Source of the DNA: a virus
Virus record (IMG/VR): IMGVR_UViG_3300025707_000017
Coordinates: 1-36,991 of that record
Length of the DNA stretch: 36,991 nt
Strand: one strand, 5' to 3'
The position numbers and the translations under genes were made by a program. Each line of letters starts with the position of its first letter. Position 1 is the first letter of the stretch. Below the pieces are notes generated by a model. That model was not told where the DNA came from and searched no databases. It worked only from the letters and a program-made list of their open reading frames with translations. Shown in pieces: positions 8,936 to 35,482 of the stretch.

Positions 8936-8999
8936 ATCGGTAATAAATATCACTTAACTGAAATAGTAGAAGAAAAGTGGAAACTAATTAAAATAAAGC

Positions 9000-9029
9000 T
9001 TGACTTATATAGGTTTTATGTTGTATATT
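9000..9029 (+). promoter_or_regulatory. Sigma70-like early promoter, copy 1
   Basis: TTGACT (9000-9005), an 18-nt spacer and TATATT (9024-9029). The box and spacer are nearly identical to the copies at 9363 and 10224, including the internal 'TATAGG' and 'GTTG' segments. This copy lacks the 'AGAGTAACGAATAAAG' extension that follows the other two. It would start a transcript near 9036 that runs through the structured leader into the 57-residue gene. Confidence 0.7.
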
Positions 9030-9073
9030 CAGTTATGATATGAGTTAATATAATGTCCAATTGATTAAATAAG

Positions 9074-9152
9074 CTCCTCCTGGGATACCAGGGTGTAGGG
9101 AGGCCCCTAATCCGGGAAATACAGGTTCAGAGTGGTACAATCTACACAACCT
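9074..9152 (+). ncRNA. Predicted pseudoknotted leader RNA (riboswitch-like)
   Basis: Between promoter copy 1 and the gene at 9193 lies a GC-richer block. It has a hairpin CCTGG (9079-9083) / CCAGG (9088-9092) with a GATA loop, flanked by CTCC (9074-9077) / GGAG (9099-9102). Immediately after the hairpin, GTGTAG (9093-9098) can pair with CTACAC (9142-9147). AGGTT (9123-9127) can pair with AACCT (9148-9152). The last two pairings interleave as a-b-a'-b' with a' and b' contiguous, which is an H-type pseudoknot. GTGTAG pairing competes with the outer CTCC/GGAG extension only by geometry, not by shared bases. It is followed by an A-rich single-stranded stretch and a strong AAAGGAG site. I do not recognise a known riboswitch class. 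Confidence 0.5.
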
Positions 9153-9192
9153 AAACAAATAATAATCAATTAAATTAAACAAAGGAGACACT

Positions 9193-9366
9193 ATGTCTAA
9201 ACTCAAACCAAAAAAACAATATACTATACAAACTACCGTTTATCGCGGTGGTCATCTAGTAAAATCTACAACCGTCAGTTACCCAGTCAAATGGGTCAAC
9301 AGACATAACTTGATTGAGGTCATAAATAACATGACCTCACTCAAAAATAATGAAAATAAAGCTTGA
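9193..9366 (+). CDS. Small basic protein of unknown function (57 residues)
   Basis: ATG at 9193 follows a strong AAAGGAG site with 5 nt spacing; the stop TGA at 9364-9366 lies inside the -35 box of promoter copy 2. The product is basic: it starts 'MSKLKPKKQYTIQTTVYRGG' and ends 'NNMTSLKNNENKA'. The first half looks strand-rich and the second helical. No known family is recognised. It is the first gene after the pseudoknotted leader, so it is the likely target of any regulation there. A perfect inverted repeat lies near its 3' end. Confidence 0.7.
   Translation: MSKLKPKKQYTIQTTVYRGGHLVKSTTVSYPVKWVNRHNLIEVINNMTSLKNNENKA
9315..9339. repeat. Perfect 9-bp inverted repeat upstream of promoter copy 2
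   Basis: TGAGGTCAT (9315-9323) and ATGACCTCA (9331-9339) are exact inverted copies around a 7-nt centre. The element lies in the end of the 57-residue gene, 23 nt before the -35 box at 9363. It is not followed by a T-run on either strand, so an intrinsic terminator is unlikely. It could be an operator for a dimeric regulator or an RNA hairpin. Confidence 0.5.
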
Positions 9367-9392
9367 CTCGTATAGGCTTTTAGTTGTATATT
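9363..9392 (+). promoter_or_regulatory. Sigma70-like early promoter, copy 2
   Basis: TTGACT (9363-9368), an 18-nt spacer and TATATT (9387-9392), followed by AGAGTAACGAATAAAG. That extension is identical in copy 3, so the start of the transcribed region is conserved as well. It drives the genes at 9418-10227. Confidence 0.75.
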
Positions 9393-9417
9393 AGAGTAAC
9401 GAATAAAGGAATAAAAT

Positions 9418-9630
9418 ATGAGTTATGTTAAAAAAATGAAAATCACAAATGAAATCACCGGTGAGGTTATAAACACCACCGAAGATAAAATGAGAAGTGT
9501 AATGGGATATGTAGAAATGTTAACCGATTCATTAGAACTATCAGATGAAACAGTTAAATCTCTTATCCCCCGGATGTTAAAGGGTGAATCTGTTAATTTA
9601 GAAGAAGTAATGAAGTTGGAGGCCCGATAG
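9418..9630 (+). CDS. Small helical protein of unknown function
   Basis: A 70-residue protein with ATG at 9418 and AAAGGA about 9 nt upstream. It opens 'MSYVKKMKITNEITGEVINT', a short beta-hairpin-like segment, followed by two acidic amphipathic helices ('KMRSVMGYVEMLTDSLELSD' and the C-terminal helix ending 'EEVMKLEAR'). No catalytic motif or known family is recognised. It begins the operon of promoter copy 2, with 4 nt to the next gene. An early host-interaction or regulatory role is typical for such genes, but nothing in the sequence shows it. Confidence 0.65.
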   Translation: MSYVKKMKITNEITGEVINTTEDKMRSVMGYVEMLTDSLELSDETVKSLIPRMLKGESVNLEEVMKLEAR

Positions 9631-9634
9631 GATA

Positions 9635-9862
9635 ATGAATAAAGAAGAATATTATATTAGTGATTGGGATATGATGATGGATCAATGGCCAGATTGTCCT
9701 GTTGATGGTTGTAAAAATAAAATAAATTTAAATTTAAATAGTGGTAAATGTTTCCCACATTCCGAGGGAAGTTACCATTGGAAAAGTTTTAAGATTTTGT
9801 TTAAAAATACATTTATAAATTCACCAAGACTTTTATGGAGAAAAATGAGAGAAATACAATGA
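9635..9862 (+). CDS. Small putative zinc-binding protein
   Basis: A 75-residue protein. C21-x4-C26 ('CPVDGC') and C39-x2-H42 ('CFPH') could bind one zinc ion, with an Asn/Leu-rich loop between them. The N-terminus is acidic and Met/Trp-rich ('YYISDWDMMMDQWPD') and the C-terminus is basic and aromatic. The stop codon overlaps the next start (ATGA at 9859), so translation is coupled. Family unknown. Confidence 0.6.
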   Translation: MNKEEYYISDWDMMMDQWPDCPVDGCKNKINLNLNSGKCFPHSEGSYHWKSFKILFKNTFINSPRLLWRKMREIQ

Positions 9863-10227
9863 ACTTAAATGAATATATAATAGACGAATTCCCATCACCA
9901 GAATATGATAGGAATTTTATAAATGACTTGGTTAATAATTACTCAGGTGATACCAATCCTAATGGTGATTTACTGGATAACATGGGGTTATATAACTATA
10001 TATGGGAGTGTTTAGTCGCAATAGAACATCCAGGTACAGAATCTGCAGATACGGAGTCACTATTGGATGATTTAGATGACTTGGTATCTGATGTGAATGA
10101 AGCTGAGAAGGATAAAAAATATAAAGTAGTGCTAGCACCATCCTTTCCTGAGGAGTACCGCTCAGTATTTGAAGATATACTGGAAGATTGGGAAAAAGAA
10201 GATAAAAAAAGTGAAAAAAAGGCTTGA
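9859..10227 (+). CDS. Acidic protein of unknown function
   Basis: 122 residues from ATG at 9859, which overlaps the upstream stop as ATGA. An ATG at 9835 in the same frame would add eight residues inside the upstream gene and has no better site. The protein is strongly acidic, with 'ESLLDDLDDLVSDVNEAEK' at its middle and a Lys/Glu-rich end 'EDWEKEDKKSEKKA'. A small acidic early protein could mimic DNA or bind basic host proteins, but that is speculation. The 3' end runs into promoter copy 3. Confidence 0.65.
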   Translation: MNLNEYIIDEFPSPEYDRNFINDLVNNYSGDTNPNGDLLDNMGLYNYIWECLVAIEHPGTESADTESLLDDLDDLVSDVNEAEKDKKYKVVLAPSFPEEYRSVFEDILEDWEKEDKKSEKKA

Positions 10228-10253
10228 CTTGTATAGCTTTTATGTTGTATATT
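10224..10253 (+). promoter_or_regulatory. Sigma70-like early promoter, copy 3
   Basis: TTGACT (10224-10229), an 18-nt spacer and TATATT (10248-10253), followed by the same AGAGTAACGAATAAAG as copy 2. The -35 box overlaps the stop codon of the preceding gene. It drives the last two genes of the island. Confidence 0.75.
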
Positions 10254-10279
10254 AGAGTAACGAATAAAGAAAGAAAATA

Positions 10280-10537
10280 ATGTTAAACTTAATAAACTTA
10301 AAAAAAGAACTCAGGAAATTAGATAGTCTTTCAGAACTGAACGATTTATCAACTTTCATTAATGAGTGTAAAACTATGTTGGGTAAATCTTCACTAAGTG
10401 TTGGAGATAATGTCTTTGTGGTTCAGAAAACTAAAAAGACTCCAGGAGTTATCACTAAGATGAAGGTTAAGAAAGCCATTGTTGAGATGAGTGGTATGTT
10501 ATATAATGTTCCATTAGCAATGTTAGAATTAGCCTAA
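10280..10537 (+). CDS. Small protein with SH3/KOW-like C-terminal half
   Basis: An 85-residue protein. The N-terminal half is a Leu-rich amphipathic helix pair ('LKKELRKLDSLSELNDLSTF'). The C-terminal half has 'LSVGDNVFVV', 'TPGVITKMKVKKAIVEM' and 'MLYNVPLAMLEL', the strand pattern of a small SH3/KOW-like barrel often found in phage nucleic-acid-associated proteins. There is no catalytic motif. The ribosome-binding site is weak (AAAGAAAG). The next gene starts 1 nt after the stop. Confidence 0.65.
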   Translation: MLNLINLKKELRKLDSLSELNDLSTFINECKTMLGKSSLSVGDNVFVVQKTKKTPGVITKMKVKKAIVEMSGMLYNVPLAMLELA

Positions 10538-10538
10538 T

Positions 10539-10892
10539 ATGTATAAATTTATTAATGGAATTCAACCAAATCCAATCAAAGGTGATTTTGATGGGGCTAT
10601 GGATAGATTACTTGAAAATATTCATAAAGACTACGAAAAATGGCGTGGTGGTTATGAGAAATTAAACGAGAAACTATCATTAAAACCAGGTAGGAAATTT
10701 ATAAAGGTTATAAGAGGTGGTTCAGTTTGGGGATTTGTCGCTAAAACTGATGGTGTTCATAAAGGATTACCAATAAAATCTGGTGATGTATTAAAAGCCG
10801 CTGGTTGGAGTGCTCCCGCTAAACATACTCGTGGTAATATATTTGATAAGAATCAAGATTATTTTCAATGGACAGGACCCAATTATTTATAA
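10539..10892 (+). CDS. Conserved phage protein of unknown function
   Basis: A 117-residue protein. The C-terminal half has 'VWGFVAKTDGVHKGLPIKSG' followed by 'DVLKAAGWSAPAKHTRGNIF' and an aromatic end 'YFQWTGPNYL'. I recall this pattern (GDxLKAAxWxAPAKxxxRGNIF) from uncharacterised proteins of many T4-like phages, so it is conserved rather than spurious. The N-terminal half is helical and charged. Its stop codon abuts the stop of the opposite-strand gene with no gap. Function unknown. Confidence 0.7.
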   Translation: MYKFINGIQPNPIKGDFDGAMDRLLENIHKDYEKWRGGYEKLNEKLSLKPGRKFIKVIRGGSVWGFVAKTDGVHKGLPIKSGDVLKAAGWSAPAKHTRGNIFDKNQDYFQWTGPNYL

Positions 10893-30700: not shown

Positions 30701-33700
30701 TTAAAAGTTCACCAATCCCAAAATCTGGTTAATCGGAGCAAAACTTCCTGTGAACTTATAAGTATTACCTTTATACTTAAATACTATACCTTCTGACGGA
30801 ACAATTGAAGATAATCCACCAATTGCTTCTAATTTTTCAAGTTGGTGTTTTAACGTAGCCAACTTTTTAACATCTTTACCTCGTTTTACCTGTTTTATTG
30901 CCGCAATTACATCTCTTCTTATCTTTTGTACCGTACTATCTCCCGAAACTGCTAAATATCCACTAATATTCTTCAATATTTGTGCACCTACATCAAAAAA
31001 TAAAACTTCAAAGGGTTTCATATTCTGTTTTACCGTTTCTTGATGGTCATTCTTATCAAATGATAATACCCAGTCTAAAAAATCAGGAAATTTCTTCAAA
31101 TCTTTTTTAATCGTTGGTATCTTATATGACTTATCAAAAAACGCCCATCTTTTAGTTAAATTAATCAAAACTTTATTCGATATTTTTGCACTATGTTGTT
31201 TTGTTGCGTTAAAGATAAATTCTTCCCAAAATGATTGATGATACATAGATAAAGTATCATTATCTTTTAATGCATATTCTTTTTGTAATTTATTTAATCT
31301 ACTGATAAACCCAGCCTTCTTTTTTCCAAAATCTTGTACTTTAGATACTGTTAAAAATTGAGGTTTACCAATTTTATAATGTTTTTGTACGTGTTGATTA
31401 ACTTGTTTAATCATACCTGCCAACATTCGTCCAGAACCTTTAAGTTCTCCAATTGCCTTCCCGCTATCATCATATTCTAATGCTCCGTGAAATACAATCT
31501 CTGCTTTATCATAATTGATTACATTTGATGATGCTGGATACATGACTTCAAGATTCATCCAATTCTTACCATTACCAAAAATCTTTTCTTTTTGTGCATC
31601 GGATAATCTACCGATAGATTTTCCCAAATCTTTCATTGCAAATACAAAGGCATCTCTAATATCACCTCTACCTGCAAACTTAGATGCTACTCCACTCGTA
31701 TCCATCGAATTTGCTCCAAAATTCTTTAGTTGACCTTTATTTCTGGCCGTGACTAATTTTCCATCTTTCCAACTAACCATTAAATTTTGACCATCAAGTT
31801 TCTCTGTAACATTATCTTCACGACTAAGATTTCCACCCAATCCTAAAGTAATAATGTTTTTTAAATCACCAAATGTCAAATTTTTATCATCAAAGGGATG
31901 ATTCATGTGTCCATAGGCTCCACCCATTAATAATAACTCCTTTCCATTATCTTGTTTATCTGTAACTAATAAATTTACATATTCTTTTAAATCAAAAATA
32001 TTATCACTATGAAATTTATCCATTGGTGATAATTTAAGCTTTTTTGCTCTTTTTGTATTTTGTCCAACTGAGTCTATATCAACTCCGGCCGATACGGGTG
32101 CCTCAACTGCCACTCCTGTATAATCTTTACCATCGGGAGTAATTCCGTTCCAATTAAGAACTTCCCAACCCAAACTACTCATTATAAATTTTATTCTATC
32201 TTTATATGCCTCTATTGGATTTGTCTTACCAAATCTTTCACCGTAGGCTCCAGCTCCTTTTTTACCATATGCCACTGCCGGAACTATGTTTTTTGAAGTT
32301 GTATAATCAAGTCCTGGATCTTTTGCAGAATCACTTATAATATAACTCAATAAATCCCAACCCGTATCATTGATTTGTTCATGAGAATACATATTTTCAA
32401 TCCAAGATTTTGTAACTCGTTTGTAATCCTCAAATCCATCATAAAATGTTGGTGGGCCGTCATCCGTAGGAAACATACCACTATTAGCAACTTCTTTTAA
32501 TAATTTTGGTATAATATTTGGATTATTAACTAAAAACCCATCATATACTTCAAATAATTTTTTAAATTTATTAGTCATCATTTGGAATACCCCTTTATCA
32601 AAGTATCCGAATGCCTTTTTAAATAATTTTTCTCTATTCTTTTCAAATTCAGGTGAACCAAGTAGTTGTCTTATAGTAGTTCCACTTACTTCCTTTCCAC
32701 CAACTCTAACTGAAACGTGTGGTGCTGTATGAATGTATCCGTGTTCCTCGTATCCACTCATGTTATTTTTATTCTTTTTATAATCTTGATAATAAGTTTT
32801 TCCACCACTTTTCTTTGTTCCACCCGTTAATCTATCGGCGTCCTTTTCACCAAATATGTAAATTACTGCAGTTGTTTCTTCATCAAATTTATTTAATGTG
32901 TTTTTAGCAACATAAGGTGTTCTTTCTTTTATAATACGATTAGATGGTATACCCATTTTTTTCATATGACGAACTTTTTCCTTAAAGTTCATTGGATGTC
33001 TTGGTGGTTGTTTTATATCAGATGTAGTGATATATGCTACATCAACTTGTTTTTCTAACCATTTATAGGTTTTCAAATGGTGGGGCCCAAACGGTTGAAA
33101 CCGTCCACCGTATACACCTACGACTTTTTTAATTTTTGATTTTTCTTCTATCACATTAGTTGTGGCTTCACTTTTCTCACTAATGGAATATACAACATTT
33201 TTAGTATATAAGTCAAGCGTTTTATTAAGTTTTTCAACAGTCACTCCAGTATCTTTAATTGCACTTTTCTTCTCTGCCTTATCTGTAGTAACGTATGTGT
33301 CGTATTTATCACCTGGAGAATGTTCATATTGACGAACTTTTAATTTAATTTTTGATTCATAATCGCTTGGTAAAGTATTCTCAATTCCTAAAAATTTAAC
33401 CGCTCCTGGTATCAAATATAAAGTCACTTCTTTTTTATTTAAATTCATCATTAACTGACTTGATGTCCAGAGTTTATTTTGTGCCCTAACTAAATCATAT
33501 TTGGGGCCTTCATTTTGTTTATGATTATAAAACGATGGAAATACCTTCTTGTAATCTTTTTCTTTAGTTAATATCTCTAAAGAATTATTCAATCTCACTA
33601 CAGAAGAATGTCTATCTGTTCCACTAGTATATCCTTGTTCTGGATGATAAATCCCGTGATTTGACTTAACTACTGGTTGTTTTAAATCTTGTATTTTCAC

Positions 33701-35482
33701 ATAAGGACTAACTCTACTTGTATTTTCTATTTCAACTAATTTATTTCCATCACTAATTAATGTATGTCCCTTAATACCACCATGATATGTTATAAGTGAT
33801 TCAACTGCATCTTTTAAAGTCGTTTTAGAAAGTGCCTCTCTGATTCTTACACCATCTTTAGACATAGCCTTCTTTTTCTTTGCTTTATCAAAATCTTTCT
33901 CATCTCGTTTTACAAATAGTGCTGAATTTACAATTCCTATTCCATGAGAATTCATTCCTTCTGACCAATCTGTATCTTGGTCTATCATATAACATAACTC
34001 CACACCATAACCAGTTAGTTCCCTAACTACTTTTAGATTTGGATTATAATTTCTATCTCGGTTTTTACCTATTACAATATCATCACCAAATTTTTTGGCT
34101 ATTGCAATACATTCATCTACTTTACGATATTCATCATCTTTTCGTTGTTTATCTAATTGTTTTTTTACTTTATTAACTTTCTTTACACTTGGTGCACCAC
34201 CAATAGATTCTTTTCTAAAAGTTCCAAATTTTGGTTGACCTGATTTTTTTGTTCTTTTTCCACGACTAACTAAATTTTCATCATCTGGTGAATTAACGGG
34301 TGTGGGTGCCTGATTATCAAGATAATTTGGTGGATTTAACATCTCGGTTGTAATCTTTTGTTTATCTAACCACTTTTTAGCCTGTTTACTTTTTATTGGT
34401 TTTTTAATAAATTTACTAATTCCCTTTCTAACCAACATATTGAATTTTCTCTGTGCTTGTTTTGGATTCAAGGTAGCATTATTATCTACTAACATAAAGT
34501 TAGACCCACCAAATAATCCTTGAAAGTATGCCATATTTTTTTGAACATTATTCCAATACTTTTCTACAAGTTCAGATGGTAAAACTCTATCTCTTAATTT
34601 ATTTCTCATTTGTGCAACTTCTAATGAAGTATTAACAAATACCATATAGGTATCATAACCTAAATCAATCAATTTTTGTCGTTCTTTTTTTACATCTGAA
34701 AATTTATGACCAGTACCATCAATAATAACACCAAGTCTACCTTTTGAATATAACTTTAATCTTTGTTTACTCAATGCTTTAGCGTGTGTTCTCACTCCCA
34801 TATGTGCACTATAACTTGGGTCTGTAATCTGTCTAAATAAATCATTTGACATATTATCTAAATCTGTTGTACCAAAATACTTTTTCAAAAACATTTCTAA
34901 TTCTGTATCTTGATTAACAAGTTTTAATCCGTATGCTGAAGTGGTTAATTTATCGGGTATTCCAAACAATCCACCAGCAACATATGACTTTCCACTACCT
35001 GGCCCACCTGCAAGAAATACTGCTTTGAATATTCCTGGATCATTTTTTCCTTCAAATAAATCATCTGCTTTCCAAATATCTTTTGGGTCTTGTGCCATAT
35101 CTAAAACTTGTATTCGAGCTTTCGTAACTCCGTGTTTCTTAGTTAATATTTTTATTATCTTTTTAGCTTCGGAATGTGATTTAGCCTTTGTATAAAGTAT
35201 ATCTTCGTGTTTCTTACCTGGAGGAATACCCCAAATTACAAATTCTTTTTTACTTTCATCTATAGTATCTTCGTCAAATATATTAACTGTTTTATGTATT
35301 CTGAATGTGGCAGCTTTTCTACCATTGATAGTTGGCATGCCGTGGTCATCTTTACCAATATCTTTGATTTTCATTTTCTTGTTTTTAAATTTACCAACAA
35401 GAATAGTATCACCAATATTAACTGGTATATTTATATCTTCTTCTATCAGGGGTTTAGTTAACCATTCAGTTAATTTATTCAC
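30701..35482 (-). CDS. Giant multi-enzyme protein: kinase, Ntn amidohydrolase, nucleotidylyltransferase, RNA-ligase-like
   Basis: A 1593-residue protein in one intact frame. Residues 1-20 ('MNKLTEWLTKPLIEED') look like a capsid-targeting peptide with a cleavable LIE site. A small barrel-like domain follows (about 20-75). A P-loop kinase has Walker A 'GGPGSGKS' (159-166). After a linker, an Ntn amidohydrolase of the choloylglycine-hydrolase type has C458, 'NRD' (474-476), 'GMNSHGIG' (509-516), 'SNH' (607-609) and R624. A nucleotidylyltransferase has 'GRFQPFGPHH' (793-802) and 'SGTTIR' (933-938). A helical region of about 200 residues precedes an RNA-ligase-like domain with 'EKLDGQN' (K1228) and 'EGIVFKYKG' (1564-1572). 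Together these could repair or modify nucleic acid or process NAD-type cofactors. Individual domains are well supported; the joint function is not. Confidence 0.8.
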   Translation of the reverse strand: MNKLTEWLTKPLIEEDINIPVNIGDTILVGKFKNKKMKIKDIGKDDHGMPTINGRKAATFRIHKTVNIFDEDTIDESKKEFVIWGIPPGKKHEDILYTKAKSHSEAKKIIKILTKKHGVTKARIQVLDMAQDPKDIWKADDLFEGKNDPGIFKAVFLAGGPGSGKSYVAGGLFGIPDKLTTSAYGLKLVNQDTELEMFLKKYFGTTDLDNMSNDLFRQITDPSYSAHMGVRTHAKALSKQRLKLYSKGRLGVIIDGTGHKFSDVKKERQKLIDLGYDTYMVFVNTSLEVAQMRNKLRDRVLPSELVEKYWNNVQKNMAYFQGLFGGSNFMLVDNNATLNPKQAQRKFNMLVRKGISKFIKKPIKSKQAKKWLDKQKITTEMLNPPNYLDNQAPTPVNSPDDENLVSRGKRTKKSGQPKFGTFRKESIGGAPSVKKVNKVKKQLDKQRKDDEYRKVDECIAIAKKFGDDIVIGKNRDRNYNPNLKVVRELTGYGVELCYMIDQDTDWSEGMNSHGIGIVNSALFVKRDEKDFDKAKKKKAMSKDGVRIREALSKTTLKDAVESLITYHGGIKGHTLISDGNKLVEIENTSRVSPYVKIQDLKQPVVKSNHGIYHPEQGYTSGTDRHSSVVRLNNSLEILTKEKDYKKVFPSFYNHKQNEGPKYDLVRAQNKLWTSSQLMMNLNKKEVTLYLIPGAVKFLGIENTLPSDYESKIKLKVRQYEHSPGDKYDTYVTTDKAEKKSAIKDTGVTVEKLNKTLDLYTKNVVYSISEKSEATTNVIEEKSKIKKVVGVYGGRFQPFGPHHLKTYKWLEKQVDVAYITTSDIKQPPRHPMNFKEKVRHMKKMGIPSNRIIKERTPYVAKNTLNKFDEETTAVIYIFGEKDADRLTGGTKKSGGKTYYQDYKKNKNNMSGYEEHGYIHTAPHVSVRVGGKEVSGTTIRQLLGSPEFEKNREKLFKKAFGYFDKGVFQMMTNKFKKLFEVYDGFLVNNPNIIPKLLKEVANSGMFPTDDGPPTFYDGFEDYKRVTKSWIENMYSHEQINDTGWDLLSYIISDSAKDPGLDYTTSKNIVPAVAYGKKGAGAYGERFGKTNPIEAYKDRIKFIMSSLGWEVLNWNGITPDGKDYTGVAVEAPVSAGVDIDSVGQNTKRAKKLKLSPMDKFHSDNIFDLKEYVNLLVTDKQDNGKELLLMGGAYGHMNHPFDDKNLTFGDLKNIITLGLGGNLSREDNVTEKLDGQNLMVSWKDGKLVTARNKGQLKNFGANSMDTSGVASKFAGRGDIRDAFVFAMKDLGKSIGRLSDAQKEKIFGNGKNWMNLEVMYPASSNVINYDKAEIVFHGALEYDDSGKAIGELKGSGRMLAGMIKQVNQHVQKHYKIGKPQFLTVSKVQDFGKKKAGFISRLNKLQKEYALKDNDTLSMYHQSFWEEFIFNATKQHSAKISNKVLINLTKRWAFFDKSYKIPTIKKDLKKFPDFLDWVLSFDKNDHQETVKQNMKPFEVLFFDVGAQILKNISGYLAVSGDSTVQKIRRDVIAAIKQVKRGKDVKKLATLKHQLEKLEAIGGLSSIVPSEGIVFKYKGNTYKFTGSFAPINQILGLVNF

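Follow-up and report, generated by a model that had tools for sequence, protein, structure and literature searches.

The role of a GC-rich and probably folded RNA segment of about 110 bases, lying behind an early promoter and ahead of a very small gene, is the question raised by one end of a small gene island in the window, a 36,991-nt stretch of DNA that is a fragment of a marine T4-like tailed phage. ORFs of the window matched portal and major head proteins in PHROGs, and the large terminase matched a Pfam family of the T4likevirus type. Most genes of the window run leftward. The island (8983-10892, + strand) is made of small rightward ORFs that have no counterpart in the gene order of related phages, and the leader and the 57-aa gene behind it form its left end. 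In relative L012 the flanking structural genes lie about 13 nt apart with no island between them, and the island is missing also from L014, L020 and L023. In relative L009 the island is 98.9% identical in its right part, from about 9641, but other small ORFs, a tRNA-Pro gene and a tRNA-Cys gene stand in place of the leader and the 57-aa gene. The island is a variable, hypervariable early-gene region with three near-identical promoters. Repeat and consensus scans placed the first of these (TTGACT-18-TATATT) at 9000-9029 on the + strand and the further copies at 9363-9392 and 10224-10253, and a motif scan found the same motif in more than 119 stretches of viral contigs. A near-perfect copy was also seen at 33187-33217 (-), inside a 1593-aa ORF (30701-35482) with weak matches to kinase-like and cytidylyltransferase-like domains.

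The gene behind the leader (9193-9366, + strand) translates into a basic protein of 57 aa with no assigned function. No Pfam or PHROG match above the cut-off was obtained for it, protein searches returned no relatives beyond identical copies, and a fold search using its low-confidence structure model (pLDDT 68) gave no significant match. A stem-loop with 14-nt arms (9310-9344) lies at the 3' end of this ORF, and the stop codon overlaps the -35 box of the promoter at 9363-9392. Elsewhere in the island, a 117-aa ORF (10539-10892, +) matched Pfam DUF7717 above the cut-off.

The leader, 163 nt between the promoter at 9000-9029 and the 57-aa ORF, is noncoding. At 87 promoters of the same class the distance to the next ORF was mostly 22-63 nt; the length of this leader is exceptional for its promoter class. 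The first-pass annotation had singled out the block at 9074-9152 as richer in GC than its surroundings and as a pseudoknotted control element for the small gene. The composition was borne out, at 53% GC against a mean of 33% (sd 6.5%), a value reached by 0.33% of 79-nt genome windows. So were the sequence elements: a hairpin of CCTGG (9079-9083), GATA (9084-9087) and CCAGG (9088-9092) is directly followed by GTGTAG (9093-9098), which is complementary to CTACAC (9142-9147), and AGGTT (9123-9127) is complementary to AACCT (9148-9152). The helix order a-b-a'-b' with contiguous 3' arms is thus present in the sequence, and as described it leads through a linker to a ribosome-binding site. By direct reading the linker (9153-9182) is A/U-rich with UUAAA repeats and runs into the Shine-Dalgarno AGGAG (9183-9187; AAAGGAGA at 9181-9188, CAAUUAAAUUAAACAAAGGAG at 9166-9187), and the start ATG is at 9193.

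Fold prediction added pairings that had been overlooked. CTCCT (9074-9078) pairs with GGGAG (9098-9102), which turns GTGTA into a 5-nt bulge within a 10-bp hairpin, P2 (9074-9102; CTCCT and CCTGG, loop GATA, CCAGG, bulge, GGGAG; pair probability 0.56-0.98), made up of helix a/a' and the inner hairpin. Both P2 and pseudoknot arm b (GTGTAG, 9093-9098) need G9098, which cannot serve both helices, so that arm b shrinks to 9093-9097 when P2 is complete. Next comes P3, a small hairpin of CCC, 6 nt and GGG (9105-9116; pair probability 0.72), followed by P4, in which AGGTT (9123-9127) pairs with AACCT (9148-9152) at a probability of 0.74-0.91 and whose 3' strand, by direct reading, is contiguous with arm b' (CTACAC, 9142-9147). 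Arm b' also has a local partner that had been missed, the nested alternative P4b (9132-9145; GTGG 9132-9135 with CTAC 9142-9145; pair probability 0.85 in the pseudoknot-free ensemble), which competes with the pseudoknot for CTACAC. Finally, AATTGATTA at 9059-9067 is a perfect complement of TAATCAATT at 9163-9171, giving a closing stem, P1, that was supported by complementarity and fold prediction and likewise absent from the earlier description. P1 has a perfect 9 bp and encloses all other stems; a perfect 9-bp helix arose in 28 of 1500 shuffles.

Whether this fold exceeds chance was assessed using shuffled and genomic sequence. A Watson-Crick pseudoknot of 6+5 bp with contiguous 3' arms was present in 107 of 1500 dinucleotide shuffles of 9059-9171 (7%), and an equivalent 6+5 bp pseudoknot in 242 of 2460 113-nt genome windows taken on both strands (10%). 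Given its composition, the block had an unremarkable folding energy (z -0.26). Values were mildly low for the P1-enclosed region and for the leader as a whole (z -1.97 and -2.13), with 2-4% of shuffles as low. The topology with a hairpin inside the pseudoknot occurred in 31 of 2000 leader shuffles, using a descriptor framed after the sequence had been seen. For the earlier label of a classic pseudoknot, the helices are present, but the arrangement is not beyond chance and the nested P4b competes with it. The pseudoknot may form, and the leader as a whole is credible as a structured RNA within a variable early region of the phage.

The competing pairings bear on whether the leader is a switch. 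The 5' arm at 9041-9057 (+) is able to pair with the Shine-Dalgarno and start-codon region at 9187-9205 (pair probabilities 0.84-1.0), and the duplex of -12.8 kcal/mol was equalled by 0.85% of shuffled arms and 1.4% of genome segments. This pairing is weak evidence, as start-codon pairing was predicted for other island ORFs as well, and occlusion of the start codon was set aside as a gene-specific feature. A metabolite riboswitch, in which exchange between the pseudoknot and a P4b/P0 fold would expose or hide the start codon, could draw on the fact that CTACAC and G9098 each have pairings that exclude one another, and on the reach of the 5' arm to the AUG region. However, the leader showed no Rfam match, no link to a metabolic gene and no homologues, and start-codon pairing is shared across the island, making this mechanism very improbable. 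The first-pass description of the element as riboswitch-like found no support. Its further remark that no known class could be recognised agreed with Rfam, which gave no match at gathering scores and, for the leader region up to E=10, two irrelevant matches only, both outside the block. A group I intron fragment, suggested by eye from UUCAGAG, returned nothing in Rfam, and HDV-like, pistol, SAM-II and preQ1 topologies and type III toxin-antitoxin RNA differed in helix order or called for repeats that the block does not have.

Leader and gene were 100% identical in four other contigs, whose flanks differ by at most about 0.15%; because the flanks are this similar, identity over 176 nt is uninformative about constraint. 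Searches with the protein, with DNA patterns and with a covariance model of the single sequence brought up no diverged homologue in the collections covered. In IMG/VR and GTDB, exact patterns taken from the leader core matched identical copies or unrelated sequence only. The single-sequence model (R1), with a reach limited to near relatives, gave two weak chance matches (E of about 5) beyond the window in more than 200 loci and 50 full contigs. These results, together with the frequency of the pseudoknot in shuffles, the z of the block and the hypervariable region, are what would be expected if there were no functional RNA here and a recently acquired or drifting GC-rich stretch had produced chance pairings. 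We consider this quite improbable: the block is a GC outlier, the leader is very long for its promoter class, P1 and the stability of the whole leader fall within the best 2-4% of shuffles, and position and topology are common to a covarying class of RNAs in sister phages.

That class emerged when viral contigs were scanned for the early promoter and the downstream sequence was read. A pseudoknot of the order a, hairpin, b, a', b' was first met behind the promoter in L230, L254 and L217, and a covariance model built from four sequences (R2) recovered further members. The class was found in at least six related marine T4-like phage contigs (L230, L254, L349, L351, L352 and L359), with members at L347/L348:1501-1572 (+), L349:1501-1570 (-), L350:217-286 (+), L351:163-232 (+), L359:1501-1571 (-) and L352:1501-1557 (+). 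The layout is GCCC, hairpin, b, WAA, GGGC, GUAAA, b', and members begin 38-50 nt downstream of the -10 element. In an alignment of seven distinct sequences all cells were paired and 8 of 12 pairs carried changes on both sides, with the qualification that the L353 row overlaps a 44-aa ORF and that the pseudoknot-like match of L246/L353 may be coincidence; slid controls on the same alignment were only 14-66% paired. Helix a/a', which lies outside the R2 model, changes from GCCC/GGGC to ACCC/GGGU in L352. Rfam holds no family for this class. The covarying sister pseudoknot is the more solid novelty of the two.

What follows the pseudoknot differs among the sister phages. In L352 an A-rich linker, a Shine-Dalgarno and a 73-aa ORF come next, L350, L351 and L349 have conserved hairpins whose loop is CUACNNAUUUG, and several of the pseudoknots head transcripts without a nearby ORF. 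The hairpin recurs as a noncoding element behind the same promoters: its loop CUACNNAUUUG(G)A is conserved, its stems vary yet remain complementary, and copies often follow GUGGGUU and stand in tandem (L230:290-400, L351:235-300, L228:3780-3815, L225:9276-9340 and, on the - strand, L262 near 8342, L240 near 3189, L067 near 14595 and L342 near 1441); Rfam reported nothing for it in the loci scanned. The contig L230, which carries the sister pseudoknot, also holds a manA RNA (RF01745) at 819-1019. A tRNA-like RNA was observed at L262 near 9396 (-), L265 near 2539 (-) and L270 near 9600 (+), having a T-arm GTGGGGTTCRANTCCCCAC and an acceptor-like stem but with the D and anticodon arms replaced by a long, unusual insert that starts GAAGGGCGTTGA; ARAGORN called no tRNA or tmRNA at these three loci, nor any tRNA or tmRNA gene in the window.

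These strings of conserved noncoding hairpins behind the same promoter are one reason to ask if the block is instead an independent small ncRNA, processed from the early transcript and exerting no control over the 57-aa gene, much as ncRNA and tRNA genes occupy such islands in relatives. The two tRNA genes in the corresponding island of L009 fit this proposal, and P1 would yield a closed RNA of about 113 nt. We regard it as improbable, as no terminator follows the block, the block is directly joined to the Shine-Dalgarno and ORF, and nothing homologous sets it apart as a gene of its own.

The leader resembles the sister class in several respects. It lies behind the same early-promoter class (CTTGACT..TATAG) with a spacer of 44 nt compared to 38-50 nt, its helices follow the order a, hairpin, b, a', b' (descriptor match at 9074), and, as in L352, an A-rich linker, Shine-Dalgarno and small ORF lie downstream. 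The descriptor topology was present at 4 of 159 other promoters against 0.7 expected; this and the count of 31 in 2000 shuffles are suggestive only, because the descriptor was framed after seeing examples and was widened to long a'-b' gaps so as to admit this leader. In contrast, the class core GAAA..AAGGGCGUAAA, (A/U)AAGGGCGUAAA, is missing from the leader, a' and b' stand 39-40 nt apart, two further hairpins lying in the gap, as compared to 2-5 nt in the class, and the R2 model did not match the leader core even with filters off. We have not filed the leader as a member of the R2 class; it may work in the same way. It is conceivable, if rather doubtful, that the leader has diverged far from the other members of an undescribed class of promoter-proximal pseudoknots in marine T4-like phages. 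If true, such RNAs would serve early transcripts as a common device at the 5' end, heading strings of noncoding modules in some phages and preceding small early genes in L352 and the window.

The explanation we tentatively favour, at a little short of an even chance, is that an early phage transcript has the block as its structured 5' leader, a promoter-proximal module acting at the RNA level. Transcription from 9000-9029 would start near 9036 and the RNA would fold into a GC-rich core of P2 with its GUGUA bulge, P3 and P4, closed by P1. The bulge could tie the fold together by pairing with UACAC at 9143-9147, and the A/U-rich linker would then lead from the fold to the ribosome-binding site of the 57-aa gene. 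The fold may be bound by a phage or host protein or may shield the 5' end from nucleases, and either would set the translation or the lifetime of the early message. The lack of a closely following ORF at several sister pseudoknots favours a role at the RNA level (protein binding, 5' protection or processing) over a pure translation switch, and we infer such a role for the leader. The proposed control element for the small gene holds up in part: a structured leader is plausible from its noncoding, GC-rich sequence, its position between promoter and Shine-Dalgarno and its length, but its pseudoknot is not beyond chance. A second kind of RNA in marine T4-like phages, tied to a defined early-promoter class and covarying in sister phages, would be a concrete, testable early-infection device; the claim for the element in the window itself stays modest.

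Compared with known systems, the leader is like the phage cis-RNAs in Rfam, manA for example, in being a structured RNA in a phage early or auxiliary region and unlike them in having no sequence or model match to them. The promoter/stem-loop (PeSL) cassettes of T4-like phages, as described in PMC4503421, are resembled by the stem-loop at 9310-9344 and the promoter at 9363-9392 just behind it, and by the repetition of early promoters in a region of gene shuffling. The leader RNA differs from them, as it sits after the promoter and is not a simple terminator-like hairpin. In the T4 gene 32 mRNA an A+U-rich stretch lies behind the pseudoknot, carries UUAA(A) repeats and overlaps the ribosome-binding site (PMC3014915). 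In a translational operator of this kind, a gp32-like SSB or the basic 57-aa protein itself would bind first at the pseudoknot and from there extend over the UUAAA-rich linker until the Shine-Dalgarno is covered. The order of elements agrees, with CAAUUAAAUUAAACAAAGGAG at 9166-9187 as the counterpart of the T4 stretch, and relatives do encode gp32. We judge such an operator unlikely, however, as the gene downstream is a gene other than 32, the leader block is absent from the gp32 genes of relatives, several sister pseudoknots have no nearby ORF, and P1 would bury part of the linker. As to the T4, T2 and RB69 gene 32 operators more broadly (PMC3014915), the leader shares a T4-like phage setting and an A/U-rich UUAA(A) linker reaching the Shine-Dalgarno; it would also share a pseudoknot upstream of the start codon, should the candidate helices form, and possibly a coaxial arrangement of two helices. 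It differs in that a 57-aa orphan takes the place of gene 32 and in an extra hairpin inside the pseudoknot, P3 and the closing P1. By analogy to the T4 gene 32 operator and to the covarying pseudoknot of the sister phages, the better guess is that the leader is most likely a protein-binding or stability element.
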